The notes beneath the pieces are model-generated. The model was not told the DNA's origin. It did no database searches and worked only from the letters and a program-made list of their open reading frames with translations. A DNA stretch of 64,000 nucleotides from Sphaerolaimus hirsutus (Eukaryota > Nematoda > Chromadorea > Monhysterida > Sphaerolaimidae): positions 24,255,832-24,319,831 of the forward strand of contig OZ038458.1 of the NCBI GenBank assembly GCA_964036195.1, given 5' to 3'. Below are positions 19,622 to 63,721 of the stretch, in pieces. The position numbers were made by a program, and so were the translations under genes. Numbering within the stretch: position 1 is the first letter of the stretch; each line of letters starts with the position of its first letter.

Positions 19622-20060
19622 AGCCGGAATTAGAGCTCAGCGTTGATTCGACGTGAAATGACGACCTGAAATTAATTACACGAGTGTGGATCATGCTACG
19701 GGTCTACAATTTTCTAAGGATAATAAATGAATCAATACCTTAATCGTGTCCAATACTGAGTGTTATCAGCCACAACTAGAGCGAATTGCAAGCAATAGTC
19801 TGACGTGAAATGTCAAGTTGTTCCCTGACGTAAAATGATGACGTGGAATGATAAAAATTGAATTTTTCAATTCGCTCTAGTTGTGGCTGATAACACTCAG
19901 TATTGGACACGATTAAGGTATTGATTCATATATTATCCTTAGAAAATTGTAGACCCGTAGCATGATCCACACTCGTGTAATTAATTTCACGACATCATTT
20001 CACGTCATCATTTCACGTCATCATTTCACGTCGAATCGATGCTGAGCTCTAATTCCGGCT
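19622..20060. mobile_element. AGCCGGAATTAGAGC palindromic element, copy B
   Basis: Counterpart of 14332-14783, with TTA flanks and slightly shortened left repeats. Confidence 0.8.
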
Positions 20061-20611
20061 TTAGGATCGCATAGCCTCTGGAAAAAGTGTTGTCATTTTC
20101 AAGTGTCTTTTTCCAAAACGACTTTTCGAATTTCGAATTTTTATTTGAAAATAGTTATCCAATTTTCAATATTTAGTTTTCGGATTTTCGAATTCTTTCG
20201 ATTACTTTTCGTGTTTTTTTTTGCCCCAATTTACCGTATTGCAGTCTCGAATTTTAAATTCTTAGCCATTGTTAGCCGCCACAGTTGTTTTTATCTATTC
20301 TGTTGGCATTATTATTATCTATTGGCAGATATTATATGTGCATTTTATACAAAAAAATAACACGGAAAATTTGAAATTAGATCCAGATTTTTCTGCAAAA
20401 AAAATCGCTTTTATCTGTTTCTTCTGACTAAAAATTCAAAACTAGTATTTAAAAAATTTGTTACTTGTGTTTCCCATCGTTAATAGTGATAAATTCCCTC
20501 GGGGTTTGGTTGATGCAGGCTTACAATTCATCATAAAACTAGTTTGATATGTAGTCATGAAAGTGTCAACTGAATGCTCAACTAGCTATACGAACAATAA
20601 AAAGGTACCTA

Positions 20612-25442: not shown

Positions 25443-27465
25443 TATGTGGCATAAAGGCACCTTACTCTACAAGAATTCATCCCATGTACATCCCGACACA
25501 GGTCACACGTTAGCAGGGGAGACATTGAATTTTTTTGTTCCCTATCAGGAGGATAAAGACATTTTTCCGGGAGTGTACATGCTTGAAAATTTTGATAAAA
25601 AAGTAATCCCCTCACTTGAAGCCACCTCTGAAAAGTTCCCCTTCAAAAAGTTCTGATGAAAAAAGATTCCCCATACGAAATATTTGAGTGAGTGTGGTAT
25701 ATCATTTTCAAGACAACATAAATATTTCGCGAAAGATTCTCGGCTCACTGAATTTCCATAATGGTTCAGAACAACACCGCTTTTCATCGTTATGAACAAC
25801 CGATACACACGTGGCAACCAGGAGCCACTCCTACCTTGACTTGGTAAAATGTATAATTTTATTTTACTCTTATTTCATTTTATTCTTGGAATTTTCAATA
25901 TTTTCAGCATTAAATTTCAATAAACATTGTCAAAATGGATCAAGTGTTTAGAAAAATGTTTTTTTTTACCCAGTGCTGAACTTTCTCACGATTTTCTACA
26001 CGGCCATACAGTTTGAATTTGAATTTGCTGCATGCAGCGAGTGGTGACTATCTGCATGAATGTTTTTTGTTGATGAATGCTAATTTTGAGCCCACATTTT
26101 GATGCTGCTACAATTGAATGTGCATAAAAATCGTGCATTGAGGTGCAATGTGGCAGGAACCGTCACTGCTATGACATCTCAGTTTGCAGCGGTGACACAC
26201 AAAAAACCGGGTAGTGACAATCACTGCGTCACTGCCACATTTTTCGTTGGTGGTGTAAACAGTAAATTAAAATGCCATATGCGCAGTAAAAAATCTATTT
26301 AATATTTACATGACTGTTTACATTTTTCAGCACATCTTACATTTACATATTTCAGCAAATCTTACAAGGTCCATGAATGTGTATAAACAAATTTTTGGTG
26401 AGAAAACTACTGTTTTTGCTTTGAAGCACTGCAGTAAAAACTCATCAGTTTTTGAGTAAAAACTTGCACTTTATGAAGAAAAAAATTCACCAAAAACACA
26501 GTAATAAAAGCAGAATTACTCAATTTTTTTGGCAAAAAATCATAACACAGTATTCATTTTTGAATAACTAAAACAAAGGGTTTAAAAAAATAAAAATTTA
26601 CCCATCACCATCTGGAAGTGGAACTTTGGTAGGTAGGGCTTGGAAGGGGGTTCAATATATAGTATTTTTCATGGGGTAGAAGGAAGAAAAGGGATACAAA
26701 GCACTAAAAGTAGGTGAAAAATAATCAAAATAGGTATCTAAGAACATATAGTACTAAAAATAGCAGAATATATGCAGTAGACACATGATTTTGGAGGTGA
26801 AAAATCTATTACAAGTTATGAAAATAAACAATTTTAAGAAGAAAAAAATGTGTAGTGTTTCTCAAAAATCACTCCACCAGATAGCTAGATAGATGGCCAA
26901 TTTGGGTGGGGGGTGTTCAGGGAATAGTAGCATAAATAAAGCCTCTGTAATAGGTAGATAGATAGCTGAGATGAGAAAACTCAGGGGAAAAAGAAATACC
27001 TTCGTGGTTCATCCTCCCCCTCCATTGGAGACTCCGGAGTGGTGGAAAAATCATCATGTCACCTTGATAGACCCCACTGCCAAGTAGCACCAATGGCGCC
27101 AGAGCAAAATGGTGCAAAGCAACAATGATCTGCCAATTCAATTTAAACAAATATCAATTGCAATTGTTAGGTTATTTTTCAGTTGACACACAAAGAATGA
27201 CCTGAAATTGTCACTTGAGAATGTCACAAGGTGACATCAAAATTTCTGCCTGTGACGCCCAAATTTCTGCTTGTGACACTCACAATGTCACAAGCACGTA
27301 CGCTGACTATGCCCCCCCCCTCCACAGTCATACCTGGCCGCAATCACCCCTCTAGCATGTGCAAAGGGCATATCACATGCTCGAGAAGGAATTGATTGAC
27401 TGCATAACGCTTCACTGCGTGTGACAGAATGCCCCACTCGGGCAAATGATCTCAGCAGGGAACCC
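25443..27465. other. No gene; decayed repeats
   Basis: 26440-26590 is an AAAACTCAAAACACAG-like array. About 26600-26925 is a copy of the TAGATAGCT repeat (see 38846-39380). 27095-27120 has one GGCGCC unit. Nothing here reads as a convincing exon. Confidence 0.4.
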
Positions 27466-31656: not shown

Positions 31657-31720
31657 ATTTTGTTCGCGCCCAACAGTGAACCTGGAGAAAATCCATGGGC
31701 AGTTGGTCTGCGATATGCAG
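31657..31720 (+). CDS. Gene B exon 1 (start of protease domain)
   Basis: Reads APNSEPGENPWAVGLRYA. PWAVGL matches the conserved PWQVSL position after the activation site. Donor GCAG then GTGTTA, phase 1, which joins in frame to GTDKRAHCAG of the next exon. The left boundary (CGCGCAG) is tentative. Confidence 0.65.
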
Positions 31721-34700
31721 GTGTTAAAAATTATAAGCCCTACTGATTGAGTAATCAAATAAATTTGTCAAATACCGTTCTAAATTTCAAAATTATTTTC
31801 CATTTTAATTGACACATTACACGACATTTGACACTTTACTGTAGACTTTACATTACGCGGGACTGCCCCAGCCACAGGCCGAGGGGTTTCCATTGTGTAG
31901 CAATAAAAAACTATCAAATATAATCATTGATCAATAATGAACCTGAACCATTTCTGCCCCGCTCAAATTTCTGTTTTGTTTTGGTCAAAAATGTACACAA
32001 ACTTAAAAAAAATATCAATGAAAACGATTATTTATATATTTTTTCAACTTTAGGTAGTTTAAATAAATTTCTAGGCACCGATAAAAGAGCGCATTGCGCT
32101 GGCACTCTGGTGTCATTCCCAGACCCTGTAAAATGCCCTGTGAAATCACGCATGTCAAATGTCATGCAAAGTGTTAAAAGTCATTTAAAATGCCCTGTGA
32201 AATGCCAAATTGGTTTGACATTTTCCAGGGCATTTTACATGCCTTCTGACACATTGCACAACATTTACCATTTTCCAGGGCATTTTACACGACTTAAGAC
32301 ACTTTGCATGACATTTGACATTTTCCCGGGCATTTCACATGACTTAAGACACTTTGCGTGACATTTGACATTTCCAGGGCCTTTTACAGGGTCCGGGACT
32401 GCCCCCTGGTGTCGTGGAAACACGTGATCACAGCGGCGCACTGTCTCAAGGAAGCACTGTTGCCGCATTTTAAAAGGGTAGCTGAGTGCCGGAAAAAGTA
32501 CCTACCGTGAGATGGGTTTTTAATTCTACTTGTAAGACAGCGTTGACACTTGAAATTTATTAAAAAATTTAGTGAGAGATTACTTTTGTGACAGTTTTTA
32601 CACATTAAAATTTCTCGTCACAATTATTGAAACGTACTTTTGCGTTTTCCAGGAAATGAGCATTTTGCTCATCTTTTACCCAGAGTAAATGTAAAAACCA
32701 CTTATTTTACGTTTTCTGTACTCAAGGGTGAGTAAAATTAAAATACTTTACTTTACATTTACCTTTACTTTGAAAAAAGTACAACATTTTTAACTCTGCT
32801 ACTGGTAACAACACAAAATTCAAATAGAAATAAAAATATCCAAAGCTTTTTCAGAGAAAAAGATCCATTTACCGGACAAAAACTACACTACAAAAGGATG
32901 ATTACATTGCAAATTGTTTACGGCGGCGTCAATATCGAAACCTTGATCGACACAAATATGGTAGCGACTGTGAAAGTAATACGCTTACACCCAGGCTTTT
33001 TCAAAGTATGTCGCAAAAATAATTGTAACGTGGTTAAATGGGTATACTCCGCGGAACGCACGCTATGCATTTTTTTAAACGAAAAACGAAAAAATGACGT
33101 TATCATTAATTTTAAAAAATGTTAAAAAAATTATTTCAGACACAAGACATACCTACAGTCCCGGCCGATATACATGGAACATAAAAAAAATTATGTCTGT
33201 AAATCGGCCCAAATGCAAGGGAGGCAGTTGATACCTGAGGTGGGGGTGCGCGCAAGGGGTGCCTACATGCACCCCTGGGGGACCCCCCAGCAGTCATCGA
33301 TCCAGCTGTGGCTGTCCGCATAATGTTTCCCTCTCAATTTTCAGCTGATGAATATAGATGGAACGTAAATGCAGCTGCGCGCTGTGTGTTCTACACGCAT
33401 GCTATAAACACACAGCCATGTCCGATCTGTTTATGTGAGATATATAAACAGGAAAAACACACTTTTGCTTGTTTTTTGAAAATTTGAGTGGAATTTAGTG
33501 ACAAAACTGACAATAGTAATCTGAATTGACACCGTTTTTTGGTTTGTTCATTTGATGTCGGTCTTTTTTGTCTGCAAAAGGGATATTTGTCCAGTGGGAA
33601 ACTTGCCCAATAATTTGGACTACCCTCTCACCACGATGGGCCCACACACGCTAGTTGACATTGACACCAAATGTCAACTGGTGCCGATCCCGATTCAAAG
33701 CTTGCTGACGAGTGGACGAACGATGTTCAAACGCAATCTTTGAATTAGGAACGGAACCAGTTGACATTCGGTGTCGATGTCAACTAGCGTGTGTGGGGCC
33801 ATTGCTGTACACGATTGTTTCCCCAACCCAAAGACACACAGTGGTCAAAACCACCAAGAAAAGGTGTTAAATGCAGTTGGCCCTGTCTGTGCCTTTCAAG
33901 CAGCTTTCTTGCCCACAGGGGGCATTCCAGGTGTTGGCATCATGCCAGTACAGGTCTCTTGTGTTTGGTAAGTAAAGGCATGCCACAGGCATTCATCCAA
34001 TGGTGCACAGTGGATGGTTTCACAACCTGTCCAAAATGATAGATGTGTGCTCAGCGACAGCATGCAAAGATGCCTATGGGTGTGCCTTTTGAATGTGCAA
34101 ATTGTGTCGCTGCATGGCATCAGTGAACACATGTGGTCTATGCTTGTTTTCCATGGCGGGGCATATAGATTCCACAAGACCAAAAATACTGATGGCAAAT
34201 GAATGAATGAAAATCAATGTCAGTTCACATTACTTTTGTCAGACTTATTACCAAATTCCACTCAGAAATGTTCTGGATCTCATGTAGCCAAAACAGACAT
34301 GGCTGTGTGTTTTTAGCACGCGTGTAGAACACTCAGCACGCAGCTGTGTTTTTGTTCCATCTATATTCATCAGATGAAATTTTGGGAAATTTTTTTGGCG
34401 GACTCCCACAGCAGCATCGATGGCTGCTGGGGGGTCCCCCCTGGGGCCAGATTTAATTCTCGAGTAATGTGCCCTACCCGAAAGTAATGCACCCGAAATC
34501 GGGCAGCCGGCCTACAAATTGTTTACGGATGCCCTACCCTACACGCCAGTCTCGCGACACGACAAGACGCAATTCAATTGCGTGTCGGGAAACACGTGTC
34601 GGATGTAGGGCATATGTCCAGTTTCAGACGGAATTTATAAATAAAAAATAAAAAAATAAAAAAGAAAGTTAGGTGGCGTTTACACGGATTTGCTGTGATG

Positions 34701-43700: not shown

Positions 43701-46700
43701 CTTGAATTTCAACCCTAGGGGGGTTGGTTAGATTACGAATCGCTCCTCCGGAGGGGTAGATAGCTGGAAAATGTTCTTTGGGGGGGGGGAGTCGTGGGGT
43801 TATGTATTTTTGTGAGAAAGTTATATTAAATGATTATCTCTCATTTTGGTGCCCAAATGTTGCCTCTGGGATAGATTGATTGAATGATTGATAGATGGAT
43901 TGATTGATTGATTTATAGCTGGGCAGTTTTGGGGGGTGTAACACCCCCTGAACCCCAACCCCCTGTTCAAGACCCCTGGACTGTGCACCGTATTATCCAA
44001 GATTACGATTGGCACTTGATTTTTAAACTCATTTCTTTCAACAAAAAAATTTATTTTTTAAATCAAGCCATTTAATCAATCAATCAATCAATCAAACTTA
44101 TTTTTTTCAACCCCTATGTTTAGCCAGTATGTAACCTCATGCAATTCAAACATTCAACTGTACAACAAGAACAACAAAAAGATGTGTATACACCAGAGTT
44201 GTTAAAATACCGGTATTTTTGAAAAGCGCAAGCATAAGCATAAATACACTTTCCAAATTTTGAGTATAGATACTGTAAGCGTAAGGTATTTTTAAAATAC
44301 CTAGGAAAGCGTAAAATAAAGCATAAGCGTAAATTTCTTTTAGAAAGTGCTCTTGCGTCAGAAAACACCCTTGCTTTCACTATTAGATGAATTTATACAC
44401 CATTGTTATTCATATTTTCACATTAAATTAGTACACAGTTGCATACTTATTATTATACATTAAGTTTCTGCATGCATTCACAATCAAGTAAATATGCATA
44501 CCAGGTGAATATATACTCACATACAGTGGCGGCAAGGGTAATGCATCCCAGATTCTGTCTGTTTTTGTTCAGTGAACTGTTTCAAAATAAAGCTCTCGGC
44601 GACAGTTTTCGCAATCCATTTTCAGCCCCAAAATTCCTAATCTGAACCTACGATATTGGTAGGCAAGACAATTTTAACGAGACATTTGTATTTCAACAGA
44701 ATTGTGTACATTTGCTGCTGTTTTTAGTGTGATACTGCACACACGCAGTCAGTTTTTTGAAAGGGTTTTCGTTCATATCCTTTTTTGTTGTTTTACACTT
44801 TTTTAAAGCATGAAACTGGACCGAGTGAAACGTTTTTTATGCTTTTAGTACCTGGGTAATTCGGCCGGGAAAGCGTAAAAAAGCGTATGGGTATTTTACG
44901 AAAGCGTAAGCGTAAGCGTAAGTATAAATACCCATTTACCCGGGTTTTTCGGGTAAGCATAAATACGCTTTCGCAACTCTGGTATACACTGCATACAAAT
45001 AATGTATCTGCTATCGCTGCTGTTTGTATGGCAATATTCTTAAGTATTTTTGTATGGTATCATTTTCAGCCAGAGGGGGCGTTATTCAAGAGGGGAAGTT
45101 ATTCAAGGGAGGGGCAATTTTTCCTCACCTCGCCAACAGGGGGGAGTTATTCGAGGGGGGTCTTATTCGAGGGGGGTCTTATTCGAGGATCTGCGGTAGG
45201 TATCTACCTCTGATATATTTTGCTTGCTTATCTGAAACAACATCATCACATCTTACAAATAAAATGAAAATTGTCGTCACAAAAAAACACGTTCACAGCT
45301 CGTGACGAATATCACCCACTTTTATGTGTCACTAAAATAAGTGTGTGACGATCCCGAGGATTAAGTTGCTGTCGTCACACTGTCGCAGCGTGAAAAATCG
45401 AGTTTTTTCAGATTTGTCGGAAAGCTGTCGGAAGGCCTGGCGGAATAAAAAAAATTCAACGGTCCATAACTATTTAATGACTAAGCCAATTCAACTGAAA
45501 TTTCACACACATGTACACCTTAGTATGACATATACTCGACCATTTTTACTCGTGAATATGGAACTTTATTCTGGAGTTATGGAACTTTAAAAAAATAATT
45601 TGTCGTAGCCATGAAATCCGTGTAAACGCCGCCTTACAAAAAATTCATTGTGAGCCACCCTGCATGTGTTGTGGCGATTGGGCGCGTGTGGGCTTGTGCG
45701 TGTAAAATGTCTGAGCAGTGATGATTTAGTCATTTTTAGCGACTAATGCATTTAGTTTTGACGATTTAGTGATTTTTAAACATTATTCACTTTTATTTGT
45801 TACTGCCCACCAGCTTTTTTCTGTTGGGCATAATTTTCTTTTTCTTTTTATTTTGTCGGCCACGCGCCCGACAAAATGTGAGAATAGAATTGGAAATTGG
45901 TTTCTAGGGCGCCTTACGCGCATAACTTGCCTATGCTTTGTACACGGTTTTGTCGGGCGTGTAGGGAGACGCATGTCGGGCGTAGTGCATAACTTTAAAA
46001 TATTTGTAGGGCGAATTAAATCTGGCCCCAGGGGTGCATGTAGGCACCCCCTGCGCGCACCCCCACCTCAGTTATCAACCACCCCCTGGCATTTGGGTCA
46101 AGTTACAGACAGGTGAAACTTTTTTTTTCAAAAGTTCCATCTATATCGGCCGGGACTGTATGCTGGTTATACACTCCGCCTTTTTTATTTTTGTGAAAGT
46201 GCGTGCATAAGTACGGCGCCGGTGCGTTGGCGCGTAAGACATAAGTACGTGCGGATGCATACTCTACTGTCAGCGAAATATAGTTGGAGAATGCAACATT
46301 TAATTGCAGAGTGGCTGTGTGGAACATGACTTGGCAATCCTAGAGCTGTATAATGAAATAGATGGCGGCACCAATGAACTTGTTAAACCGATATGTCTAC
46401 AAAGTTGGTCAAGGTTTTTGGAGCGTTATATCCCAACCCCAATGCACACACAGTTAACGATGAGAAAATTTTTCGCAGTTTAGCAATAGCCAAAATTATG
46501 ATCTCTGGACACTGTAAAAAATTTTTAAGACATCAGAAAAAAACATCACAAATGCACACAGATACGCCGGTGGCGCCACCAGGTGCCAGTCCCAAACCCT
46601 GTAAACTGTTTAGCCAAATGTCAAATGTCATGAGTCATCACAAATTTGTCAATTGAAATGCAAAGTGTCAATTATCATGTAAAATTAATACAATCATTTT

Positions 46701-48330
46701 TTCTGTTTCTGCTTTGCATGACATTTTACATGACATTAGACACTTAACTTCACACTTTACAGGGCTCGGGACTGCCCCAAGAACCGGTTTCTGCAGCTGG
46801 GTGGGGGTTGATAGAAAAGTCCAGGTATTTTTGGCAACTAATTACAATTCCAGGGGCTAATTCTATTTACTTTAGAAGTGGAGATGTAACGAGAAATGTG
46901 GTAAATGTGAGAGATGTAGACTCTTATAAAAGTAAACTCACAAGTGACTTCAATTCTATTTAGATTTATTTATTCTAGTATACTCGGCTTACTTTACACC
47001 TTGCACGCGTGGTTCCAGCTGGAAGTGTGCCAACGATGGTGAACGCGTGCGAGTTGCATAAAAAGATGCAAAATTGATTGTTGTTATAGTGTTATTCATT
47101 AACATATACACATCGATGAATTTTTTTCATCTTTTTACGGAAATCGCATGATTAAATGGTCATTGGCACGTTTCCAACACGAGACATAAATCAGTGCGAG
47201 GGCAGAGTATCATGTAGGCCGAGTATAACTTATAAATCTACTTGTCGGTTAACTTGCCACTTTAAGGTGGTACACACACCGGTGTCAACTGGTTTCCATG
47301 TCAATTCACATTTTAGTTGACAGGTCACGGGGCAAATTTCAAGTGCACATGCGGCAAAGAATAAATAATTGTACGTGCATTTGAACACGGTTCGGCAACA
47401 ATAAAACCAATCGACCCAGTTGACACCCAATGTCATTGTCAACTAGTTGTGTATACTCCAGTGATTTTACACCCTACACGCGTGGTTCCCGTTGGAAGCG
47501 TGTCAACGATTTTTTTACGCATGCGATTTTCATAAAAGGTTGAAAAAAGTCATCTCTGTTATAACGCTATACGTGACCTTATTCACAACAATGAGATTTT
47601 TCATCATTTATACAAAAATTGTCTGCTTTATCATCATTGGCACGCTTCCAACGTGATACATAAATGAGTGCGAGGGCAGAGTGTCATGTCCGTCGAGTAT
47701 ACGCATTAAGTCAACTTGTCACTAGAGACACATTAATTAATCGATCATTCAACACTTAACTCGTCACTTGTCCGCTCGCGGAATTGATATACTCGACGGA
47801 CATCACACTTAGTATGAAAACCTACCATAACCCATCTGAATAATGAACCAAAAATTATATAGTTTTTCAGCATAATATTTAGTTTTTACTTTGAAAAAAT
47901 TAATTACGAAATTTGTCACAAGATTTTATTCATTGAATTATGGTGGGATTCTGCAGATAGTTTGCGGTTTACCGAGCATATACTCCAGTCGCTTTACACC
48001 CTGCACGCATGGTTCCCGCTGGAAGCGTGCCAATGATTTTTTATGCATGCGACTTCCATAAAAAGTTGAAAAAAGTCATCTCTGTTTTAACGCTATATAA
48101 CGTTAACTGATTCACAACAATGATTTTTCATTTTTTATACAAAAATTGCATGCTTTATCATCATTGGCACGCTTCCAATGTGAGACATAAATGAGTGCGA
48201 GGGCAGAGTATCATGTCCGCCGAGTATACCAGATATCATAACTGAAGCATAATGTGACATGTGACAAAAATTTCAGGAGACCATTAATCATGCGCTGGAC
48301 GCTAACAGAAACCAAGGCATGCTCAAATGG
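31657..48330 (+). CDS. Gene B, trypsin-like S1 serine protease (partial, spliced)
   Basis: Exons in order: 31657-31720; 32075-32497 (interrupted at 32115-32405); 32855-33005; 46310 to about 46403; a segment ending at 46582; 46782-46824; and 48277-48330. They carry the chymotrypsin-fold landmarks in the right order: GENPWAVGLRY, CAGTLVSWKHVITAAHC (catalytic His), YGGVN...IRLHPGF, EHDLAILEL (catalytic Asp), ELVKPICL, SAAGWGL, and a later Cys-containing stretch TLTETKACS. Phases agree for the first four exons. No GDSGGP exon was found. A weak candidate (CQATLQMWD...QCAG) lies at about 49975-50030. No signal peptide exon was found. A ~13.3-kb transposon-filled intron separates the His and Asp exons. 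The family peptidase activity is known; activity here cannot be claimed without the Ser exon. Confidence 0.8.
32075..32497 (+). CDS. Gene B exon 2 with catalytic His, split by an insertion
   Basis: GTDKRAHCAGTL, then a 291-bp MITE-like insert, then SWKHVITAAHCLKEALLPHF. Removing the insert between CTG and GTG restores the canonical CxGTLVS...TAAHC box. Acceptor TTTCTAG; donor AAAAA then GTACCT in phase 2, which fits exon 3. Confidence 0.75.
32115..32405. mobile_element. GGACCCTGTAAA MITE inside the catalytic-His exon
   Basis: Inverted ends CAGACCCTGTAAAATG and CTTTTACAGGGTCCGGG. Interior AAATGTCATGCAAAGTG and complements. CTGGTGTC stands on both sides (32107-32114 and 32406-32413). Same family as 46583-46781 and 58374-58542. 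Unlike those, the expected acceptor here ends in TG, not AG. Confidence 0.75.
32855..33005 (+). CDS. Gene B exon 3
   Basis: Acceptor CTTTTTCAG, donor AAA then GTATGT. Reads EKDPFTGQKLHYKR, then LQIVYGGVNIETL, then VKVIRLHPGFFK, the usual strand and V-x-HPxF segment between the His and Asp motifs. Phase 2 in, 0 out. Confidence 0.75.
33345..34373. mobile_element. Inner TIR segment CTGATGAATATAGATGGAAC
   Basis: Arms CTGATGAATATAGATGGAAC with GTTCTACACGC and ACACACAGCCATGTC in the same order on both sides. It contains the small MITE 33638-33800. Several open frames at 33771-34202 overlap on both strands and none is recognisable. Confidence 0.6.
33638..33800. mobile_element. CACACACGCTAGTTGACA MITE
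   Basis: Ends GGCCCACACACGCTAGTTG and CAACTAGCGTGTGTGGGGCC are inverted, with ACTGGTGCCGATCCCG and its counterpart inside. Same family as 3069-3460. Confidence 0.7.
34672..35090. mobile_element. PIF/Harbinger-like MITE, TTA duplication
   Basis: Ends GGTGGCGTTTACACGGATT and AATCCGTGTAAACACCACC, flanked by TTA (34669-34671 and 35091-35093). TGACAAAA/TTTTTGTCGTCA motifs next to the ends. 419 bp, non-coding. Confidence 0.8.
35091..36387. other. No gene seen
   Basis: AT-rich DNA between two Harbinger-like elements. 35580-36010 is AAATTTTTGAATTT-rich. No exon or repeat family assigned. Confidence 0.3.
37020..37430. mobile_element. CAGGGGT element, TAGATAGCT phrase
   Basis: Ends CAGGGGTATC and TTAACCCCTG. 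GATAGATAGC phrases next to each end. Matches 38846-39380 in inverse orientation. Inserted in a CTTCTAATAGAACGGCA array (about 36690-37019). No clean target duplication. Confidence 0.65.
38296..39954. mobile_element. TAAACACCTTCCCGG foldback element, second copy
   Basis: Same arms as 16741-17865 (ACACCTTCCCGGTCACGTCC at the left, GACGTGACTTAGAAGGTGTTTA at the right). Split by the hAT element at 38846-39380. Confidence 0.75.
38846..39380. mobile_element. hAT-like element CAGGGGT, TAGATAGCT phrase
   Basis: Ends CAGGGGTCTC and GATACCCCTG, flanked by a perfect 8-bp duplication CACCATGT (38838-38845 and 39381-39388). The interior contains CAGCTATCTATC phrases and AAAATCGCTATTTTTC. 535 bp, no transposase. 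Confidence 0.88.
39955..42060. other. No gene; fragments
   Basis: 40857-40950 is a fragment of the 38846-39380 family. 41720-41760 has GGGGGATTATTCGAGG of the TA-element type. The remainder is AT-rich with no supported exon. Confidence 0.35.
42170..42730 (+). CDS. Unrecognised 186-residue ORF inside the Harbinger-like interval
   Basis: ATG at 42170; a second ATG sits at 42215 before ACSIAGNAARASENRGGFLR. It is GC-richer than its surroundings and predicted helical, with a CDDCSG pair and several Cys and His later (KACCRHLM). An AATAAA-type signal follows at about 42703, overlapping the 3' end. A 162-codon frame on the other strand is also open, so the strand is not certain. It is not a recognisable DDE transposase or Myb-like protein. 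It could be a passenger gene of the surrounding element. Confidence 0.35.
   Translation: MLSPPPTIQSPKKSKMACSIAGNAARASENRGGFLREAERPAVIRTLVNFIAKVVKHHEMLMGNVKQVPPAVPRISQYPEGKCDDCSGMPEYLLFHLRMFADVYLHITNTQLRQMCKVMLTTIHTAKACCRHLMTTMQFISDAVQMRSLFFPRMRRFVDTFCMRCMCIWIEKPFVMTQNKINKTFS
42955..43411. repeat. GTGCACAAGTAAACC phrase array
   Basis: GGTGCACAAGTAAACCCGG is repeated three times at 43020-43070 and faces GAGCACCGGGTTTACTT at 43395-43411 and TTTACTTGTGCACTGG at 43617-43632. Looks like another phrase-array MITE, containing a TAGATAG fragment and interrupted by the hAT element at 43412. Confidence 0.5.
43412..43615. mobile_element. hAT-like MITE TAGGGTTCAAACGGGATT, CCCAAT phrase
   Basis: 204 bp. 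Perfect inverted ends, flanked by a perfect 8-bp duplication GTTTACTT (43404-43411 and 43616-43623). The interior is only AATCCCAATCCCGATCCCG repeats. A left-end relative is at 37837-37965. Confidence 0.9.
44194..44981. mobile_element. Non-autonomous hAT element, GCGTAA hexamer arrays
   Basis: Ends CAGAGTTG and CAACTCTG, flanked by a perfect 8-bp duplication GTATACAC (44186-44193 and 44982-44989). Same architecture as 9344-10285, but its hexamer is GCGTAA throughout instead of CGTAAA. Confidence 0.9.
45066..45196. mobile_element. CCGCAGATCC-type element, right part
   Basis: GGGGGAGTTATTCGAGG arrays ending GAGGATCTGCGG at 45196. The core (GTATACACTGCATAC) continues on the other side of the hAT insertion at 44194-44981. 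Confidence 0.55.
46310..46403 (+). CDS. Gene B exon with catalytic Asp
   Basis: Acceptor TTAATTGCAG, phase 0 as required by exon 3. Reads SGCVEHDLAILELYNEIDGG then NELVKPICL, with DLAIL the conserved DIALL box. The 3' boundary is uncertain; donors at 46404, 46408 and 46414 are possible. Confidence 0.75.
46583..46781 (+). mobile_element. MITE lying exactly on a predicted intron of gene B
   Basis: Begins GTGCCAGTCCCAAACCCTG directly after CCACCAG and ends GGCTCGGGACTGCCCCAAG directly before AACCGG. Ends are inverted repeats, with AAATGTCATG motifs inside. Removing it joins GTGGCGCCACCAG to AACCGGTTTCTG in the frame that leads into SAAGWGL. The upstream coding segment is not independently confirmed. 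Confidence 0.6.
46782..46824 (+). CDS. Gene B segment with the GWG motif
   Basis: Reads PVSAAGWGLIEKS with donor CCAG then GTATTT, phase 2. GWG is the strongly conserved strand after the Asp box in S1 proteases. Confidence 0.7.
46979..47226. mobile_element. T(A)TACTCGG MITE, copy 3
   Basis: TATACTCGGCTTACTTTACA at the left and GTAGGCCGAGTATA at the right; sub-ends GGTTCCAGCTGGAAG and CGTTTCCAACACGAG. Confidence 0.75.
47262..47450. mobile_element. Diverged TAGTTGACA MITE
   Basis: Ends GGTGGTACACACACCGGTGT and GTCAACTAGTTGTGT. Related to 33638-33800. Confidence 0.5.
47452..47701. mobile_element. TATACTCCAG MITE, copy 4
   Basis: TATACTCCAGTGATTTTACA at the left and CCGTCGAGTATA at the right. 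Confidence 0.75.
47786..47978. mobile_element. TATACTCGACGGACATCAC element
   Basis: Uninterrupted copy of the element split at 8785-9335. Inverted ACCTACCATAA and TTATGGTGGG inside. The right end GCATATACTCC overlaps MITE copy 5. Confidence 0.6.
47979..48229. mobile_element. TATACTCCAG MITE, copy 5
   Basis: TATACTCCAGTCGCTTTACA at the left and GTCCGCCGAGTATA at the right. Third copy within 1.3 kb. Confidence 0.75.
48277..48330 (+). CDS. Gene B later exon (tentative)
   Basis: Acceptor AATTTCAG. In the phase left by the GWG segment it reads RPLIMRWTLTETKACSNG, which fits the L...C stretch after GWG. Donor GG then GTCAGT. A CCGTATTTCC element begins 14 bases downstream. Confidence 0.5.
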
Positions 48331-53221: not shown

Positions 53222-55752
53222 CTGCGGCATTAAATCAATTTTGAAGTTATTACCGTATTTCCTCTAATAGAACAGCATATCTTCAATATAAGGGCATCTC
53301 CAATAAAACGGTAGGTTTTGGCACGTTTTTGCGCTCACGAAAACAGTAGAACGGCATCCAATTAAAAAGCGCACTATAATTAAAAGACACCCTCCAATAG
53401 AACGACAGGAAGAAATTACGTTAGAAGAGTGCCAAAACTGCAAAACCAAAACACCACTGGACATCCATGGCGCCCAGACTGGCGCTTGATTGACGTTGTA
53501 TTTACATTTTATTTAACACTTTACAGGGTGCGTAACTGCGCCCTGGTCAAAACCGAACTAAACAAACACAAAAAGCCGGGGAATGGGGACCGTTCTATTG
53601 CATTTTCTTACACAACTCTTGTAAACAGCTTTGAAAAAACTGACCAGCCGGGTCTGACAATGTGATACCGCCCCTGAACAGATAAATCGACCACGGTGGA
53701 CCCACAGCGAAGCAAATTTTCATCCATTTCTTGATTTTGCTGCCCCGAGCGACCGCCATCAACTACCAAATCTAATTCGTGCCAAATTTCGTGGAAATCC
53801 TGAAAGGCAGATAGACAAAATTATGCAGGGAAAAATTGCTGTGGTTTATGTACAATTTCGCAAGTGAACGCGTTAAGTGTCAAAGACGTTACGGCAGTGT
53901 CTACAGGAAAAATTAGTGACGGCGTATTTTTTATCTAGTTTCATATTTCAAGCAAAAATTGGTTTCCGCACTTTATTTATCATTTTAAAATTTTAGACTT
54001 AGGTGAACACCTCAATCAAAATTACCTGTACTCTCAAACTGCTAATATGTCCCGCGACATTGGCACTAGTCAAAGCCAAAGGTTCGCCCAAATATCGGAC
54101 AATCTCCCTCACAAAGTCGCAATTTGGAATGCGCACGCCCACCAGCGAAGTGCTCGGATTCACGTTTGTTGGCAGAGTGCCAGAACGGTTGAAAACCAGC
54201 GTTACCGGACCGGGAAGCAAACGGTGCAGTAGCGATTCGGCCACGGTCACTTGGGCCCATCTGGAATGGCGGGGGCACGTGTAGAATTTTTTAAAATACT
54301 TTTCAATAGGAATTGTGCAAATCAATACGAACGCCAAATTGACTCGAATTTGAGACGATAACACGGATTTGCACTTGACAAATTTGTATGACACACATTT
54401 TACATTTGAGCCCTTACAGGGGGCAGTCCGAGACGCTGTAAAGTGTATGGATATAAACCAGGGACGTATCCAGGATTTTTGAGCGGGGGGGGGCTGCTTG
54501 TTTACGGGGGCCGGCGAGCGGGGGGGGGGGGGCTCAGCCCCCCCCCTAAATTTTTTCCCCATATAGGGACGAAAAGGCGTTTTGGCGCTAGCGCCATACC
54601 AAGGCGCCACGCCATGGCGCTATTGGCGCTGGCGCCAGCGCCAGGAACCGTTTTATATAGATGTAAATATGCATAAATATGCAGCGAAAGTCACAAAAAT
54701 CAGTGGCGTAGCAAGGATTTTTGAGCGGGGGGGGCGGATTGTATACGGGGCCCGGCGAACGGGGGGGGGCGGCGCCCCCCCCCTAAAATTTGGCCCCTAT
54801 AATCACGGAATGGAGTTATGGCGCTAGCGCCATTCGTAGGCGCCGCGCCATGGCGTGATTGGTGTCGGCGTTGGCGCCAGTGGCTACGATATAAGAAAAA
54901 TTTTATACCAAAATGTATGCAAATTTGTACCGCATTTAGTAATTTGAAGCAGTATTTGCACTAATGCGACATACATAAAATAGAGAGATTGTGAGGGGCG
55001 AAATGTGCGCCTGCGCGCAAAATTTTTGAAAACAACCTACAAAATCAGTATAGGAAAGTCACATTCTCGGCAATTTTTATGTCCGGCCCGGGAAGGGGGG
55101 GGGGCGGCCGCCCCCCCCCCTGGCTACGCCACTGACAAAAATGTGTTCATTTTCAAGAATATTTGTTTACAGGGATGGATCCACTAAAAATACAATGTAT
55201 GGTGAAGAAATTGCGCGCTTGCGCGCAAAATTTTTAAGAAACATCGAAAAATGTATAGGAAAAATTGCATTTTCCGGGACTTTTTAGGTCTCACCCCGGG
55301 AGGGGGGGGGCTGCTATACAGGGCTACTGCTTTCTATACAGGGTTACTGATATTGGCAGCTGGGGTCAATTCGCAACTTTAGAACTAAAAAAAAATTAAA
55401 AAAGATAAGACGTAAAGTGAGGAATAAAAATTAAAAGGGAATTTAGAAGTGAGAAGTGAAAAACGTGAAGAGTTAGAACAATTTAATTTTACTTTTCACC
55501 TACTTTACTTCTCACTTGAAAACAGTTTTATTTTCTACTTCTGAACTAGCGAGACGGCCCCCAAATCTCACCTATAAACCTGGTCTACACTGGCTACGCA
55601 AATGGCCACCGGTTTATCAGCCGGCCGTCTTTTTATGCGATACAGCTGATTAGCGTGTGATAACGTCGCAGCGATGCCGTATATGGTATCAGTGGGTAAT
55701 GCGATGATGCCGCCAGATTTTAGGGAGTGTAGGGCGCAGCGTAGGGCTGATT
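53095..55752 (-). CDS. YRDC: Gene C, YRDC/Sua5 threonylcarbamoyl-AMP synthase
   Basis: Four minus-strand exons: 55752-55572, 54260-54026, 53799-53645 and 53221-53095. Every phase agrees (2, 0, 2, stop). The protein makes threonylcarbamoyl-AMP from threonine, bicarbonate and ATP for the t6A modification of tRNA. Visible landmarks in order: ALPTDTIYG, DKPVAICVASVDQVYRWA, LLPGPVTLVF, STSLVGVRIP, GEPLALTSANVAG, VVDGGRSG, GSTVVDLS, IVRPGCAL, LRSHGLMP. About 231 residues are seen, most of the YrdC domain. No start codon lies in the first visible exon (ACCCCTCAG acceptor), so a 5' exon, perhaps with a mitochondrial targeting sequence, is missing. Introns carry MITEs, including nested hAT elements. 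It is probably head-to-head with gene D. Confidence 0.93.
53253..53421. mobile_element. CCGTATTTCCTCT element in YRDC intron 4
   Basis: Left CCGTATTTCCTCTAATAGAAC after TA; right GAAGAAATTACG. CTCCAATAGAACGRCAG arrays. It lies only 31 bases from the exon 5 acceptor. A GGACCC-type MITE fragment (CTTTACAGGGTGCG) is at 53520. Confidence 0.65.
53645..53799 (-). CDS. YRDC: YRDC exon 4
   Basis: DFHEIWHELDLVVDGG through GSTVVDLSVQGRYHIVRPG. Acceptor CTTTCAG, donor GGCTG then GTCAGT. Confidence 0.92.
54026..54260 (-). CDS. YRDC: YRDC exon 3
   Basis: WAQVTVAESLLHRLLPGPVT through ALTSANVAGHISSLRVQ. Acceptor CCATTCCAG, donor ACAG then GTAATT. Contains the conserved LTSAN motif. Confidence 0.92.
54469..55315. 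mobile_element. CAGGGACGTATCCAGG element hosting a relative, in YRDC intron
   Basis: Left end CAGGGACGTATCCAGG and the GGCGCC core as in 51364-51786. The right end is degraded after CCCGGGAGGGGGGGG. A related element is inserted at 54701-55134. Confidence 0.6.
54701..55134. mobile_element. hAT-like CAGTGGCGTAGC element
   Basis: 434 bp. Ends CAGTGGCGTAGCAAGG and CCTGGCTACGCCACTG, flanked by a perfect 8-bp duplication ACAAAAAT (54693-54700 and 55135-55142). GGCGCC-type core. Confidence 0.9.
55572..55752 (-). CDS. YRDC: YRDC exon 2 (first visible)
   Basis: Starts near ALRCALHSLKSGGIIALPTD and ends at DQVYR with donor TATAG then GTGAGA. Contains the PTDTxYG signature and the KRRPADKPVAI substrate-site strand. 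The frame stays open upstream to about 55840 without an ATG. Confidence 0.88.
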
Positions 55753-56828: not shown

Positions 56829-57096
56829 ATGTCATGTGACCACCGTTTATTGCTAGTAATGGCTGTCCCGTGCACTCGTAATGGACAGCCGCTATTGGCT
56901 GAAATGCACCCAAGTAAATTTGGCTTTGATGGTGCTCATGATGCCATGAATGTGGGTGCAGTTGGGCAGCCGGGATACGTCGCGCTGGTCGGCACCGCTG
57001 ACAACCAGCTGGTTCGGCGGTACGAGCGCAAAGGCAATGAACAAAGGGCGGGCCGCCACCGGTATCGATGTGTGTCATGCGGAACAGCATCGAAAG
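56829..57096 (+). CDS. Gene D exon 1
   Basis: ATG at 56829, with a second in-frame ATG at 56859. Reads AVPCTRNGQPLLAEM and ends in HRYRCVSCGTASK, the first half of the zinc finger. Donor AAAG then GTCAGT, phase 1. Confidence 0.75.
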
Positions 57097-60000
57097 GTCA
57101 GTTTTTGGTGACAGTGGTTTTCTTTTCGGGTCGGTGAAATAGGTTTATAGTGCTGGTGCACGAGCAAAAATCGTGCCAGATGCAATACAAAGTGGCGCCT
57201 GGGACCGAAATTATCCATTAAATTTGTCATTCATACACTACCCAGTGCTGTTTTTAGTTCATATAACTTTTTGGATGCCAATGTCAAATGTCATGCAGTG
57301 TCAAAGGTCATGTAAAATGCCATGTCAAAACGTCATATTTTATGCAAAACACGTCAAAACGTCAAAACACCCAACCCCCCCCCCCCCACCGCAGCCACAC
57401 AACAGGGGCCGATCTCTTACATCACTATCGACATCGCGACGCGTCAAGTTTTCTGCGCTGGCGGTAATCCACACGATCCGAACAAACACCACAACGACTG
57501 CATTCCACAAACATGGGCAAAGCAGGTGGCCCTCAAAATCCAGCGTACCGTCTCCCAAGAAGTGAGAGTTAACCCGGTTGTTAGCATTCCACAGGTACGT
57601 ATTTTGGGTATTTTGATTTGATTTTGTGATGATTTTCAACGTTGAATTTTGGTTGGGGGATTTAAAGGGTTGATTTAAAAGTATGGTAATTTTCGCTGTA
57701 ACCTATTACCTAGTATTTTTCATATGCATTGCAAACAAAACGCATGCCGCCAGCAGATTATGCCACATTAGGTCACTGTCACTTCAAACGCAGCGCCGCA
57801 CCCCGCCCATCGATGCCTACCATATTCTTTAATCAACCCTTTTTTTGCCCAGCGTTGAATTGCCCTGTGAAATGCCCTGTAATGTGAATGTGAAATGCCC
57901 TGTAAAATCATGTGTAGTAGTGTACATGTGTAAAGTCATGTGTAATGTTGTCGTTGTGTCCCTGTGTAAAGTTGTAAAACCACAAAATTTGTTGCGCAGG
58001 CGCGCCGCAAGGGCCAAAAGTCACTCATAAATGTGGTGCGACAAGATGTCGCTGCACTGCAAAATGGTTTAGGGGTGCGTCAAAATTACAATGCCGCAGC
58101 TGTTGAGCTAGATCAGTTAAATAGACGGAAATCGTGGATATACAGTGCACGCGCGTCGACACTTCCTACAATTCCAAACATGTATGTCTGCAAATTTGTG
58201 AATGTGTTTTGTGAATACCTCTGTAAAAATCGCATGGTATGATAATTTTTCACAGCGCTGCACCGTTGCCAGCTAGATATCGTGGGACACTGTGTGCATT
58301 GGGGGCGCCGCCGGGCGACGACTTTGCTAATGAACGGTTTTTGATATTTGAAGAGGGCATACGCGCCGATCAGGTGCCACTCTCAGACGCTGCAAAATTC
58401 CCGGTATCATGTCAAATGTCACGCAAAGTGTGAAAAGTCATGTAAAATGTAAAACTAGTTTGCCATTTTACATGACTTTTCACACTTTGCGTGACATTTG
58501 ACACGATACCGGGAATTTTGCAGCGTCTGAGAGTGTCCCCAGCTGTCTCCAATTCGTGTGTTTCGAGTGCCATCAGCAATGACCATGATGAGGTCATCCA
58601 ATGTGTGGTTTGGTGATGGAACATTTAAGGTTGCACCAATCGGGTATGAGCAAATCTACACAGTTATGGGCAAGCATGAGAAGGGCGAGTGCCACCCAGC
58701 ATTTTGGGGGTTGTTGCCAAACAAGACACAGGTGTGTAAATGAAGGTGTAAATTTGAAATGGCGTGTCATGCAAAGTGTCAAAAGTCAAAAATTTAAATA
58801 TAAATCTCCCAGACATTTTTCAATGCTAAAATGTTCAAATGTTAATGGAACGATATTTGCAATAATACTCAATCAAAACTGCAGGAAAGCTATGAAGTTT
58901 TGTTCTCTGAAGTTCGCACTGAGCTATTGACACATGGAGACCTGTTCAACCCAATGTTCACGTTCAACCGAACAGTGTTGTTCGATTATGAAATTGCGGC
59001 ACACAATGCTTTTCGCACTGTGTTTATCACTGGGGATCCAATGCAGGACTGGTGGTTTTTGAAGGGCTGTCGCTTTCATCTTGGCCAATGTGTGGGTTCA
59101 ATATATTTTGAACGTTTTTTGACATTTCCAATTGTCAATAAAAATTGACATTTCAAAATGTCTATCTGTAATCACAATACAGATATGGCGCCATACACAA
59201 GAAGTCGGTCTGCAAAAACTTTATGCAGTCGACGATATTGTGCGTACTACAGTGCAGCATCTGCTCGGAATGTCGATGGTGCGCGTGACACGTGTCATTA
59301 CAGTGTGGCAGATTGTTGTGCAACATTACAACAACAATCAGCATGAAGATGCAATGGTCTGCTTTCTTTGAAGTCTTTGGTCTGCTTTTAAAATCCAGAA
59401 ATTTTTTGAAATCCCAGTACCCAATTGTCGTTTGAAACGTACACAAATGTCAAAAAATGCAACTAAAACCAGTATTCGAATGTAGATGTGAAACACGGTA
59501 AATGTCTATACAATAAATAAATACAAATAAATACAATAAATACAGGTTGGCAGACAAATTGAGCGCCTCCTGAGCTACTTTGCGCGCCAGTGGATGCTGA
59601 GTAATCAACCAATTCCGCATGTGCAACGCATGCGCTACCTGAGCATGTGGAACCACTTCAATAGCACAGTTCCTCGCACGACGAACTTTTTGGAAGGGCG
59701 GCACAACGTTTACCGCAGCACACACGGTGATCGCAAGCGCAAATTGGCACATTGCCTGTCTTGGCTACAAGCAGAGGAAGCGGCGGCGAGTCAGGCGATC
59801 GCTTTCTTGGACCACCCTGCAAAACAGGTGCTTTATTAGCATTGAAAGATGGGTGATCAAGAGAAAATATGATTAAAAATGACACGCGCTCAGGCAAAAC
59901 CCCGCGATCCGCGCTACGTCGCACTCGATCTACAGCTTATGCAAGCGGGGCATCTGGTCGAAATGGGTCTCCCCTGGCATAATGCGGTAGCTTTGTTAAT

Positions 60001-60156
60001 CTTATTTAAGTAATATTCAATGCACAAATATGTAGATAATGTTGAAAAAATTACAATACACAGCCACTGGCGGCCTACACGCAAGCGCATCGCGACAGAG
60101 TTTTGGCATATTTGCGGCAAGTGGCACGGCTGTCGGGTGCGGCGGCGCAGCACTAA
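56829..60156 (+). CDS. Gene D, FLYWCH-like/MULE-transposase-domain protein, 10 exons
   Basis: Ten exons with matching phases give 575 codons plus TAA: 56829-57096, 57395-57594, 58000-58181, 58256-58373, 58543-58731, 58885-59091, 59183-59278, 59546-59827, 59894-59986 and 60064-60156. Residues ~65-125 form a FLYWCH-like zinc finger: YRCVSCG then HDPNKHHNDC. From about residue 240 the MULE (Mutator-like) domain shows a DDE set: NVWFGDGTFKVAP, VLFDYEIAAHNA and TTNFLEGRHN, plus the CRFHLGQC finger between them. No inverted repeats bound the gene and it has nine introns, so it may be domesticated, though an intron-rich transposon is not excluded. MULE domains bind and cut DNA in transposons; the role here is inference. 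Confidence 0.85.
57395..57594 (+). CDS. Gene D exon 2
   Basis: TQQGPISYITIDIATRQVFC then GNPHDPNKHHNDCIPQTW: second half of the FLYWCH-like finger. Donor ACAG then GTACGT. Confidence 0.8.
58000..58181 (+). CDS. Gene D exon 3
   Basis: ARRKGQKSLINVVRQDVAAL then ELDQLNRRKSWIYSARAST. Acceptor TTGCGCAG, donor CAT then GTATGT, phase 2. Confidence 0.8.
58256..58373 (+). CDS. Gene D exon 4
   Basis: APLPARYRGTLCALGA then FANERFLIFEEGIRADQ, the usual lead-in to the MULE catalytic domain (ERFLIF). Ends GATCAG at the first base of the MITE intron. Confidence 0.85.
58374..58542 (+). mobile_element. MITE that is exactly one intron of gene D (introner-like)
   Basis: The 169-bp intron begins GTGCCACTCTCAGACGC and ends GCGTCTGAGAGTGTCCCCAG. 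Bases 58378-58449 and 58464-58535 are inverted copies with 71 of 72 positions identical and a 14-base loop. The interior (AAATGTCACGCAAAGTGTG) matches the MITEs at 32115-32405 and 46583-46781. Both flanking exons are in phase 0 and read RADQ then LSPIRVF across it. Element ends and splice sites coincide to the base. Confidence 0.8.
58543..58731 (+). CDS. Gene D exon 5 (first catalytic Asp)
   Basis: LSPIRVFRVPSAMTMM then SNVWFGDGTFKVAPIGYEQI and AFWGLLPNKTQ. GDGTFKVAP is the MULE first-Asp motif. Donor ACAG then GTGTGT. Confidence 0.9.
58885..59091 (+). CDS. Gene D exon 6 (second catalytic Asp)
   Basis: ESYEVLFSEVRTELL, LFDYEIAAHNAFRTVF and GCRFHLGQC. Donor TGT then GTGGGT. Its 153-bp upstream intron contains an AAATCTCCCAGA fragment of element Y type. 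Confidence 0.88.
59183..59278 (+). CDS. Gene D exon 7
   Basis: IWRHTQEVGLQKLYAVDD continues GQC as the expected QCIWRxxQEVGLQ. Donor ATG then GTGCGC is the least certain boundary of the gene. Confidence 0.75.
59546..59827 (+). CDS. Gene D exon 8 (catalytic Glu)
   Basis: VGRQIERLLSYFARQWM, MWNHFNSTVPRTTNFLEG and HNVYRSTHGDRKRKLAHCL. RTTNxLEGRHN is the MULE Glu motif. Donor ACAG then GTGCTT. Confidence 0.9.
59894..59986 (+). CDS. Gene D exon 9
   Basis: AKPRDPRYVALDLQLMQAG then HLVEMGLPWHNA. Acceptor GCGCTCAG, donor GCG then GTAGCT; phase 0 on both sides. Confidence 0.7.
60064..60156 (+). CDS. Gene D exon 10 (C-terminus)
   Basis: PLAAYTQAHRDRVLAYLRQV then ARLSGAAAQH and TAA at 60154-60156. 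Acceptor ACACAG. An Ala/Arg-rich helical tail. Confidence 0.7.
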   Translation, partial: PLAAYTQAHRDRVLAYLRQVARLSGAAAQH

Positions 60157-60950: not shown

Positions 60951-63721
60951 GTAGGCAGATCGATTGGTGCGTTGTCAGTACTACTAGGAAGGATGAGATG
61001 AGCGAGGAAAGTGTTAGGTAGGTTTTGGGGGGTTCTTTTTTAAAGGGTTTGGGGCGTGTGAGGTGTGATTATCGAAATTTGCTGAAATTTGTAAAGTGAA
61101 TTGTGACGAACATAATGGCCACTCACATACCCTGTAAAATTTCAAACGACATGCAAAGTGCCAATAGTGGACAAGTATAAGGAACGTTGACAGTGACAAA
61201 CTTATATTTAAGTAGCGTTAAATATCCTAATAAAATTCCACTTGTAAGTACTGATCACTAACATCAATAACTTTTCCTGTCACTTGTCCACTTGACATAA
61301 AACTTGACACCAGAAAAACTGCGTAACTCCTTCAATCTCTCAAACTCACCATCCGTTGACATTGACAAACTTGTCAGTGACACAGGGACTTTTTCTACTG
61401 GCTGACAACAGAAATCACGAAAACTTACGCCGACCGGCCGAGCGGATTGCCTTTAACAGAGCGAAAACTGAAGAGACCCTCCGGTGTCAATTCCGCGAGT
61501 GGAGAAGTAAAATACCATTTTGGGAGTCAGAAGTGAGAAAAAATGTCAACTGAAAAGTTAAAAGCGAATTAAAATGAAAGGTGAAAAATTAAAAGCTACG
61601 TAAACTTCTAACGTTTCTTATATTTATATACAGCAGATGGGAATTAACTTTTCAGTGACTAATGAAAACATCCCTTCTATGTGACCAGTTCTTTTATGGA
61701 AATGATGTCCCAAAATTATGAACATAAATAATGGCCCTGCCCACACTAGTTTTCACAGGAAATTTCGAAAACTCATAAATTAGCTTTTAATATGTTTGAG
61801 TTTTCCACAATGAGTCATTTTAAATCTCCGTCAACTGTAGTTGACGGCCACCTCATTGTAGAACACTCAAATGCGTTCTAAGCTGATTTGTGAATTTTCG
61901 AAATTTCGTGTGAAAACTAGTGTGCGCAGGCACAATGTAAAATGATTAGTAAAACGTTAAGTGAACTACAGTAAGTAAAAATTTTACTTTCCACATCTAA
62001 AATTACTTAGATTTTAGCTGTTTACTTCTCATTTTACTTAGCTTTTTAACCTATTACTTGTTGTCATTTTAATTCGCTTTTAACTCTAACTTCTCACTTA
62101 TCAAATGGTTTTTTATCATTCTCCACTTGCGGAATTGACCCTCAGATGCGTCTTCCCTGATTTTCAAGGACTACACAAAAAGTGAAACTCCGCCCACTTT
62201 GGTTTATTGGTTGCCCAGCGCCGATGAGGGCGCCCTGCGCGAACATTACGCAATGTTGCAAAGTGAAAGGCCCGAAGTTATTGTCGTATTCCATTTGTTG
62301 CCAGCGGTCAATTCGGTTGAATATGGTTGAGTTTGGTCTTGTTATTTTTCAATTTTGGATTTGTGCCAATTTTTGCGAGTTGCCAGATGACGAAAATGTG
62401 GGAAGTTGAGTTACCGTAATTTCGAGCAAATTATCGGCATTTAAGATCTTGTTCCCGTTTAAACCCTTATCACCGATAATAGACGTTAAGCACTTTGTCT
62501 ATCACTTACCGTCACCAGGGACGTATCCAGGATTTTTGAACGGGGGGGGGCTGCTTGTTTACGGAGGCCGGCGAGGGGGGGGGGGGGCTCAGCCCCCCCC
62601 CCCTAAAATTTTAGCAACATAGTGGCGGAATGGCGCCATTAGTAAGCGCCACGCCATTTCGCCATTGGCGTTGGCGTCAGCGCCATGGAACGCTGTATAT
62701 GTATGTAAATATACATACAAAACAGCAAAAAGCACATCATTTTTAATGATTTGCGGCCACAAGGAGCAAATCTGATGATAATACCTTATATCTGGTGAAG
62801 AATGCGCGCTTGCGCCCAAAAATTTTTACGCTGACGTTGAAAAAGTCGCATTTTCTGGTCACTTTCTGGTCTCGCCCCGGGAGGGGGGGCTGCAGCCCCC
62901 CCGCCCCCCCCCCCCCTGGATACGGCCCTGACCGTCACTATATTCCACTTTTTTCAATTCCTTTGCAGAGTTCATCAAATCGCTCAGTTTCGAGTACGCT
63001 TTCGTACGGCAGGGAATATTGGCTCAAAATGCAAAAAATCGCTTTGCCAGCATCGAGAAACCGATCGAGGAAATTGTGGGGAACATGGCCGATTGGATTA
63101 CGAAGCGATTGTTTGAAGTGGCCTTTGGAACAAAGTAATATTTTATATTTTTGGGATAGCTTTGTTTTTTTTAAATAACTTTGGTTGATATTTTTGCGGG
63201 ATTACTTTGTTTCATTTTTCGGGATTACTTTTTTATTTTGAGGGGATTACTTTGTTTCATTTTGGGAGGATTAATTTGTTTTATTCTTTTGAGATTAGAG
63301 CTCAAAAAGTGATCGAGTTGTCAGGGCACTTATATTTTTCCGGATTCGGGATGGTGACTTTTCAAAGGGCTTTTAAATTTGGACCCCCTCGGGGGTTAAA
63401 ATAGATGGTGCATCTGCGGAGGGATGGTTAGGGGGTTTTTTTTTTTGGGGGGGGGGGGTTTCACGTCATTTTCCGATCTTCGAAATTAAATTTCAAAATC
63501 CCCCCTTATGAAAACTTACCATATATCATCCAGAAAACAACGCGGCGCCACCGTGGACATCACAATCGATACCGCCTCAAAATCTGCGCGCAAGGTGTCG
63601 CCTCTGTGCAATATAATGAATCCCGACAGAAAAGCGGTCAGGCACAGGTTGCCCTATGATAATGATCTGGGCCATATTGTTTTCCAGTCACTTCATGGCG
63701 CCGTGCCAGATTTCGATTCTG
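60770..63721 (+). CDS. Gene E, unrecognised host gene (exons 1-4, continues)
   Basis: Exons 60770-60950, 62146-62325, 62969-63134 and 63534-63721 join with phases 1, 1, 2 and 1. Start ATG at 60770. About 238 residues are visible. The N-terminus is Ser/Thr/Asp/Glu-rich (TSTSSSDVVILSETVSETS). It is followed by a Cys-rich stretch (CDHECTVLEACQNCGN), then a probably folded region with TPPTLVYWLPSADEGAL, RPEVIVVFHLLPAV, EEIVGNMADWITKRLF and YDNDLGHIVFQSLHGAVP. I do not recognise the family. Introns hold an element with a perfect hAT duplication and other MITEs. The 3' end is beyond the window, or at least beyond 63721. Confidence 0.65.
61733..61932. mobile_element. CACTAGTTTTCAC MITE in gene E intron 1
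   Basis: Ends GCCCACACTAGTTTTCAC and GTGAAAACTAGTGTGCGC with long inverted arms (AAATTTCGAAAA, GAGTGTTCTA). Same family as 13105-13360. Confidence 0.7.
62146..62325 (+). CDS. Gene E exon 2
   Basis: ASSLIFKDYTKSETPPTLVY through VVFHLLPAVNSVEY. Acceptor ACCCTCAG, donor TATG then GTTGAG, phase 1 on both sides. Confidence 0.65.
62516..62930. mobile_element. hAT-like CAGGGACGTATCC element in gene E intron 2
   Basis: 415 bp. Ends CAGGGACGTATCCAGG and CCTGGATACGGCCCTG, flanked by a perfect 8-bp duplication ACCGTCAC (62508-62515 and 62931-62938). GGCGCC-type core. Nearly the same as 51364-51786. Confidence 0.92.
62969..63134 (+). CDS. Gene E exon 3
   Basis: FIKSLSFEYAFVRQGILAQN then FASIEKPIEEIVGNMADW and LFEVAFGT. 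Acceptor CCTTTGCAG, donor ACAAA then GTAATA, phase 2. Confidence 0.7.
63534..63721 (+). CDS. Gene E exon 4
   Basis: KQRGATVDITIDTASKSARK then LPYDNDLGHIVFQSLHGAV and PDFDS. Acceptor ATCATCCAG, donor TTCTG then GTTTGT, phase 1. Confidence 0.7.

Follow-up and report, generated by a model that had tools for sequence, protein, structure and literature searches.

Results

The window analysed here is the whole 64,000-nucleotide stretch of contig OZ038458.1 from the nematode Sphaerolaimus hirsutus. It carries on the forward strand a MULE-transposase-like gene, gene D (56901-60013), which we modelled by hand with nine exons: 56901-57096 (its start being provisional), 57395-57594, 58000-58181, 58256-58373, 58543-58731, 58885-59091, 59183-59356, 59546-59827 and 59894-60013. 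All eight introns of this model are GT-AG, and a single frame runs through to the stop codon. The joined protein matches the Pfam family MULE (7.2e-06) with 26.8 bits, just below the cut-off of 27.6, and RYYR-CCHC (6.6e-04), likewise below the curated cut-off; three weaker Pfam matches were taken as chance. A search for terminal inverted repeats (TIRs) around gene D, as would be expected of an autonomous partner, gave nothing convincing, the best match between the flanks being a direct and not an inverted repeat.

Intron 4 of gene D (58374-58542) lies in phase 0 and consists of a 166-bp element, copy A (58374-58539, forward strand, GTGCCACTC...GAGTGTCCC), plus three bases. Its 72-nt hairpin arms (58378-58449 and 58464-58535), their single mismatch and the 14-nt loop between them are as an earlier, sequence-only reading had described them. 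That reading had also taken the intron to be inverted repeat throughout; this holds for the arms, but the repeat is not clean up to the splice sites, since the outermost four nucleotides, GTGC at the left end and GGGA at the reverse-complemented right end, match at only two of four positions. When copy A was compared with the window by BLAST, it matched itself in the complementary orientation over 158 bp with 96.2% identity. The earlier reading had called the insertion recent, but the near-identity of the arms may mirror how the hairpin element was made and not the time of its landing.

The central earlier claim, that a MITE-like element is here exactly an intron, stands: excision of 58374-58542 leaves one open frame over all eight hand-placed introns up to the stop at 60011-60013, whereas retention, of a length that is not a multiple of three, brings in a stop codon. 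The donor GT (58374-58375) is carried by the element, so that the 5' splice site does coincide with the element's left end. The corresponding claim for the 3' splice site has to be corrected. The element stops at 58539, and the final CAG (58540-58542) repeats the CAG that precedes the donor as the last exon codon (58371-58373); the AG within it, the proposed 3' splice site, is therefore flank and not element. Nor does the Pfam MULE match bear out the supposition that the domain reads through the junction. The junction follows residue 218 and the Pfam match begins at residue 239; starting 21 residues past intron 4, it does not cross the junction and backs the frame downstream of it.

Across the copy A region there are 18 in-frame GT-AG pairs, one of which removes exactly the element and one CAG; an alternative pair shares the donor, has its AG 9 nt earlier and would add three residues. 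When 24 hairpins, hand-picked from the results of an inverted-repeat search, were placed at random in the window, an intron of gene D was matched in 334 of 200,000 trials, and copy A placed at random inside gene D matched one in 1139 of 200,000, a match being a start within 6 nt and an end within 10 nt, tolerances that were chosen after the real offsets were known.

Copy A is not alone. BLAST and nhmmer identified in the window three complete copies (A, B and C) of one family, together with the right ends of two further copies (D and E); the nhmmer model was built from seven ends, which match it by construction, and E was left out of it. An end pattern derived from copies A and C had six matches with at most three mismatches in the window versus none in 100 shuffles. 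All five lie in genes with the element strand equal to the sense strand of the gene, an orientation that is suggestive only.

Copies B and C share a trypsin-like gene. Copy B (32110-32405, forward strand, 296 bp) lies between codons of a trypsin-like exon, with CTG to its left (32107-32109) and again to its right (32406-32408). Read without it, the exon gives HCAGTL-VSWKHVITAAHC and a Pfam Trypsin match of 8.8e-08, while the version that keeps it up to the first stop matches no Pfam family; it thus sits exactly between codons, and the trypsin spacing over it supports insertion into an exon. Its left end has the GT, its right end has no AG, and none of the ten in-frame pairs removes it exactly as a GT-AG intron. 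Since the exons of B look intact nonetheless, either B is not exactly spliced or the splicing proposed here is wrong. The stretch 32110-32408 could be left unspliced, spliced as GT-TG or spliced inexactly.

Copy C (46583-46778, forward strand, 196 bp) is flanked by CAG (46580-46582) and AAG (46779-46781). Six in-frame GT-AG pairs occur here and one of them is exact: removal of 46583-46781 joins ...TPVAPP to EPVSAAGWG. Combined with the preceding donor CAAA/GTTGGT, which was picked to suit the phase, this junction gives a phase-consistent protein with a Trypsin match of 17.8 bits, below the cut-off of 20.6. In Pfam, the Trypsin match was absent when C was retained, when a phase-consistent join was made from another upstream donor and when C was spliced at its internal acceptor (see below). 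However, a version that breaks the phase reached 20.4 bits, so the Trypsin score cannot decide which upstream donor is used. The candidate introns A, in the MULE-like gene, and C, in the trypsin-like gene, align from donor to acceptor, this being a comparison of two introns only. The introner-like behaviour that the sequence-only reading ascribed to copy A gains support from two other members of its family: C is a second case of an exact GT-AG intron, and B is the third insertion placed exactly in an exon.

The remaining members lie within introns. Right end D (31797-31869, forward strand) is inside an intron of the trypsin gene (about 31720-32074), away from its edge, as can be told from the trypsin coding sequence joining 31719 to 32075 without it; D was for that reason ruled out as a fourth intron end. 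Right end E (54420-54460, reverse strand) is flanked by CTG and lies, in sense, in an intron of a YRDC/Sua5-like gene (53640-55740, reverse strand) of at least three exons, which when joined match Pfam Sua5_yciO_yrdC at 1.3e-38. Weak family-like interiors were found by nhmmer, all on the forward strand, in intron 1 (57260-57344, 2.3e-06), intron 2 (57859-57928, 4.8e-04) and intron 5 (58745-58798, 1.1e-03) of gene D; they could be remnants of decayed introners or insertions that came later. Weaker end-like matches at 61116-61177, 53486-53543 and 26305-26380 were inspected and have no clean pair of ends.

With a slash marking each element boundary, the junctions read CAG/GTGC...TCCC/CAG in A, CTG/GTGT...CCCC/CTG in B and CAG/GTGC...CCCC/AAG in C. 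The right end, as reverse complement, is GGGG in B, C, D and E, followed by AGC in D and by CTG in E. In other words, left ends begin with GTG in three of three cases and right ends with GGG in five of five. TIRs are present in A, B and C, and the 3-bp flanking repeat is exact at A and B and agrees at two of three bases at C. The simplest reading is a 3-bp CWG target duplication around an element with ends that differ at base 2, and it is the left-end base there that makes the donor GT. A (CAG and CAG), B (CTG and CTG) and the right flank of E (CTG) fit CWG, while C (CAG and AAG) and D (AGC) are imperfect; the flank of D would not fit unless one C had been lost. It should be kept in mind that CAG is also the usual end of an exon. 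The CAG before A and C could therefore have been chosen by splicing, which leaves B and E as the only independent support for CWG. The TWA duplication of PIF/Harbinger elements proper is not what the copies have; CAG and CTG are found instead.

The RNA fold of copy A reaches -134.6 kcal/mol (z -21), a value equalled by none of 200 shuffles; that of B is strong as well (z -12.4), and that of C is weaker (z -5.4). Four of the five right ends (A, B, C and E, not D) have retained TTTACAG or TTTTGCAG at a distance of about 19 nt from the terminus, at 58516-58523 in A, 32382-32389 in B, 46755-46762 in C and 54436-54462 (reverse strand) in E. In A, this acceptor-like TTTTGCAG on the forward strand is in the wrong frame, 19 nt upstream of the terminal AG and fully paired; use of the internal AG would shift the frame in both A and C. 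In the predicted folds the internal AG has an unpaired probability of 0.00 in A and C, compared with 0.97 (A) and 0.99 (C) for the A of the terminal AG. The terminal G is unpaired with a probability of 0.97 in C and of 0.13 in A, where it is mostly paired. The donor is predicted to be paired in both copies, with an unpaired probability of 0.01-0.03 in A. These predictions suggest that the fold may act as a filter against every AG but the terminal one. The stem might also draw the two splice sites together, as the sequence-only reading had inferred. The same stem could, however, hinder splicing, because it places a 72-bp duplex between any branch point in the loop and the splice sites, and it could hinder the pairing of U1 or of the branch point.

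Discussion

The arrangement described above is real as a pattern of sequence and most likely reflects an introner. Based on the termini and flanks, we think that the element is probably a MITE, a short non-autonomous DNA transposon, which acts as an introner and belongs near NuwaI among the CWG-targeting PHIS transposons. Insertion at a CWG target would duplicate that target; the left end GTG, which would be GGG changed at one base, would place a donor directly after CAG, and the right copy of CAG would supply the acceptor, so that splicing would restore the codons present before insertion. Landing in CTG, as B appears to have done, would supply no AG; since a CTG insertion gives no AG, only some exon insertions would be exactly spliceable. 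The hairpin, for its part, would conceal the pyrimidine-rich internal AG, an out-of-frame site 19 nt upstream, and would leave the terminal AG open.

One could object that these are ordinary MITE insertions which break genes, that the two host genes, gene D and the trypsin gene, have been inactivated or wrongly assembled and that no splicing takes place at the element ends. Copy B, which lacks an AG and interrupts the trypsin frame, would be at home in such a scenario, and gene D, being transposase-like, need not be functional. On the other hand, gene D is open over nine exons with all eight hand-placed introns of GT-AG type, and both A and C can be removed exactly, which would be rare for unselected insertions. 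We therefore regard this explanation as unlikely.

A different possibility is that an old intron at the gene D junction was later replaced or filled by the MITE, the match of the ends being due to coincidence or to later trimming. The family does land in introns, as is evident from the family-like interiors at 57260-57344, 57859-57928 and 58745-58798 and from D and E, which lie inside introns and not at their edges. However, the element and its flanking CAG account for all of intron 4, the pattern recurs with C in another gene, B sits exactly in an exon, and random placement seldom yields such a match. All this makes a filled older intron improbable.

Finally, MITEs of the hAT, MULE and Merlin types have target duplications of about 8 bp, and an introner from such a class, with the target giving both splice sites, would account for the flanking repeat of B, which can also be read as a perfect 8 bp (CTGGTGTC) and as such would speak against the 3-bp rule, and for the corresponding 8 bp of A, which match at 6 of 8 positions (CAGGTGCC, CAGCTGTC); but C has no visible 8-bp repeat (CAGGTGCC versus AAGAACCG) and all three left ends share GTGYCA even though the right flank varies, so that GTGY is more simply element sequence and this origin seems very improbable.

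If the element is indeed a CWG-targeting introner, several of its features have precedents. According to Gozashti et al. 2022 (PMC9860276), introners are related introns whose similarity extends to the splice boundaries on either side; they have TIRs as well as short duplications, and of their splice sites one is carried while the other is taken from the duplication. Published families there have at least five copies, and introners were found in only two animal groups. Compared with introners in general, the present case consists of only three known full copies in one window. It resembles the introners of Chrysochromulina, which, in the legend to Fig. 2C of the same paper, carry the 5' splice site and co-opt the 3' site from the duplication, as copy A would. 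In the searched text of PMC9860276 the word Harbinger is not used and no PHIS or Harbinger parent is named. The introner elements of Amoebophrya also carry inverted repeats, which give the intron a hairpin shape, and short direct repeats at the boundaries; their splice sites are mostly non-canonical (PMC7789003), whereas those of A and C are GT-AG.

NuwaI, of the PHIS superfamily, is described in section 7 of Han et al. 2015 (PMC4482050) as having CWG duplications confirmed by empty sites and TIRs that usually start with GGG; it was found in 16 animal genomes and is known only from animals. Our copies share with it the CWG target duplication and the GGG right ends. They differ in having GTG at the left end and in being short and nearly all inverted repeat, and intron-making is not among the properties given for NuwaI in the examined passages of PMC4482050. 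No transposase or Myb/SANT gene was found by Pfam among the scanned part of the window's ORFs. The introner transposons of Aureococcus and Micromonas reported by Huff et al. in 2016 are said to be non-autonomous DNA transposons that carry one splice site and co-opt the other from the duplication; their termini and duplication reportedly differ from those of the present element.

Introners and the split of splice sites between element and duplication are thus already known, and what would be new here is the parent and the rule, with CAG insertions yielding introns and CTG insertions not. A literature search that covered few subscription papers listed none that linked introners to CWG-targeting PHIS elements, and no paper joining introner, Harbinger and target site duplication was among the first matches listed; given this coverage, the result is no proof of novelty. 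A wider proposition, which we offer tentatively and as possible rather than probable, is that CWG-targeting PHIS transposons might be pre-adapted intron makers. The duplicated CAG would be both an ideal exon end and an acceptor, and the single-base change of GGG to GTG at one end would let every CAG insertion be removed as a clean intron. The role of the long hairpin would be to mask acceptors inside the element, leaving the terminal AG as the only one in use. An animal lineage would then be gaining introns in this way at present, with the copies at CTG sites as built-in unspliced controls. The origin of new introns is an old open question, and few animal groups are known to have introners (two in PMC9860276). 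If the proposition is true, the published target rule of one transposon group would predict that CAG insertions can become introns and CTG insertions cannot, and the step from transposon to intron would be testable in one genome.

Other features of the window

DNA patterns of the element ends had no matches in viral_contigs and genome_contigs, which means little, as these collections contain few or no animal genomes. The MULE protein of gene D had no relative in viral_contigs, where two stretches matched a peptide and neither was confirmed, and no phage match was found. Rfam and ARAGORN together reported for the window one tRNA-Asn only. In one Pfam scan set, comprising 20 of the 323 ORFs of at least 60 aa, the single match was a weak one to the Follistatin N-terminal family (0.0023, below cut-off). 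An ORF at 22198-23133 (reverse strand) matches the reverse-transcriptase family RVT_1 at 4.1e-04, below cut-off, and presumably resembles BEL/Pao. Further long inverted-repeat elements lie at 4076-4984, 16733-17874, 14328-14787 and 19618-20064; the last two have termini and flanks in common and so may sit in a larger duplicated stretch. Another MITE family is visible in TACCGTATTTCC-like ends that recur as inverted copies at 18086, 25033, 48343 and nearby.
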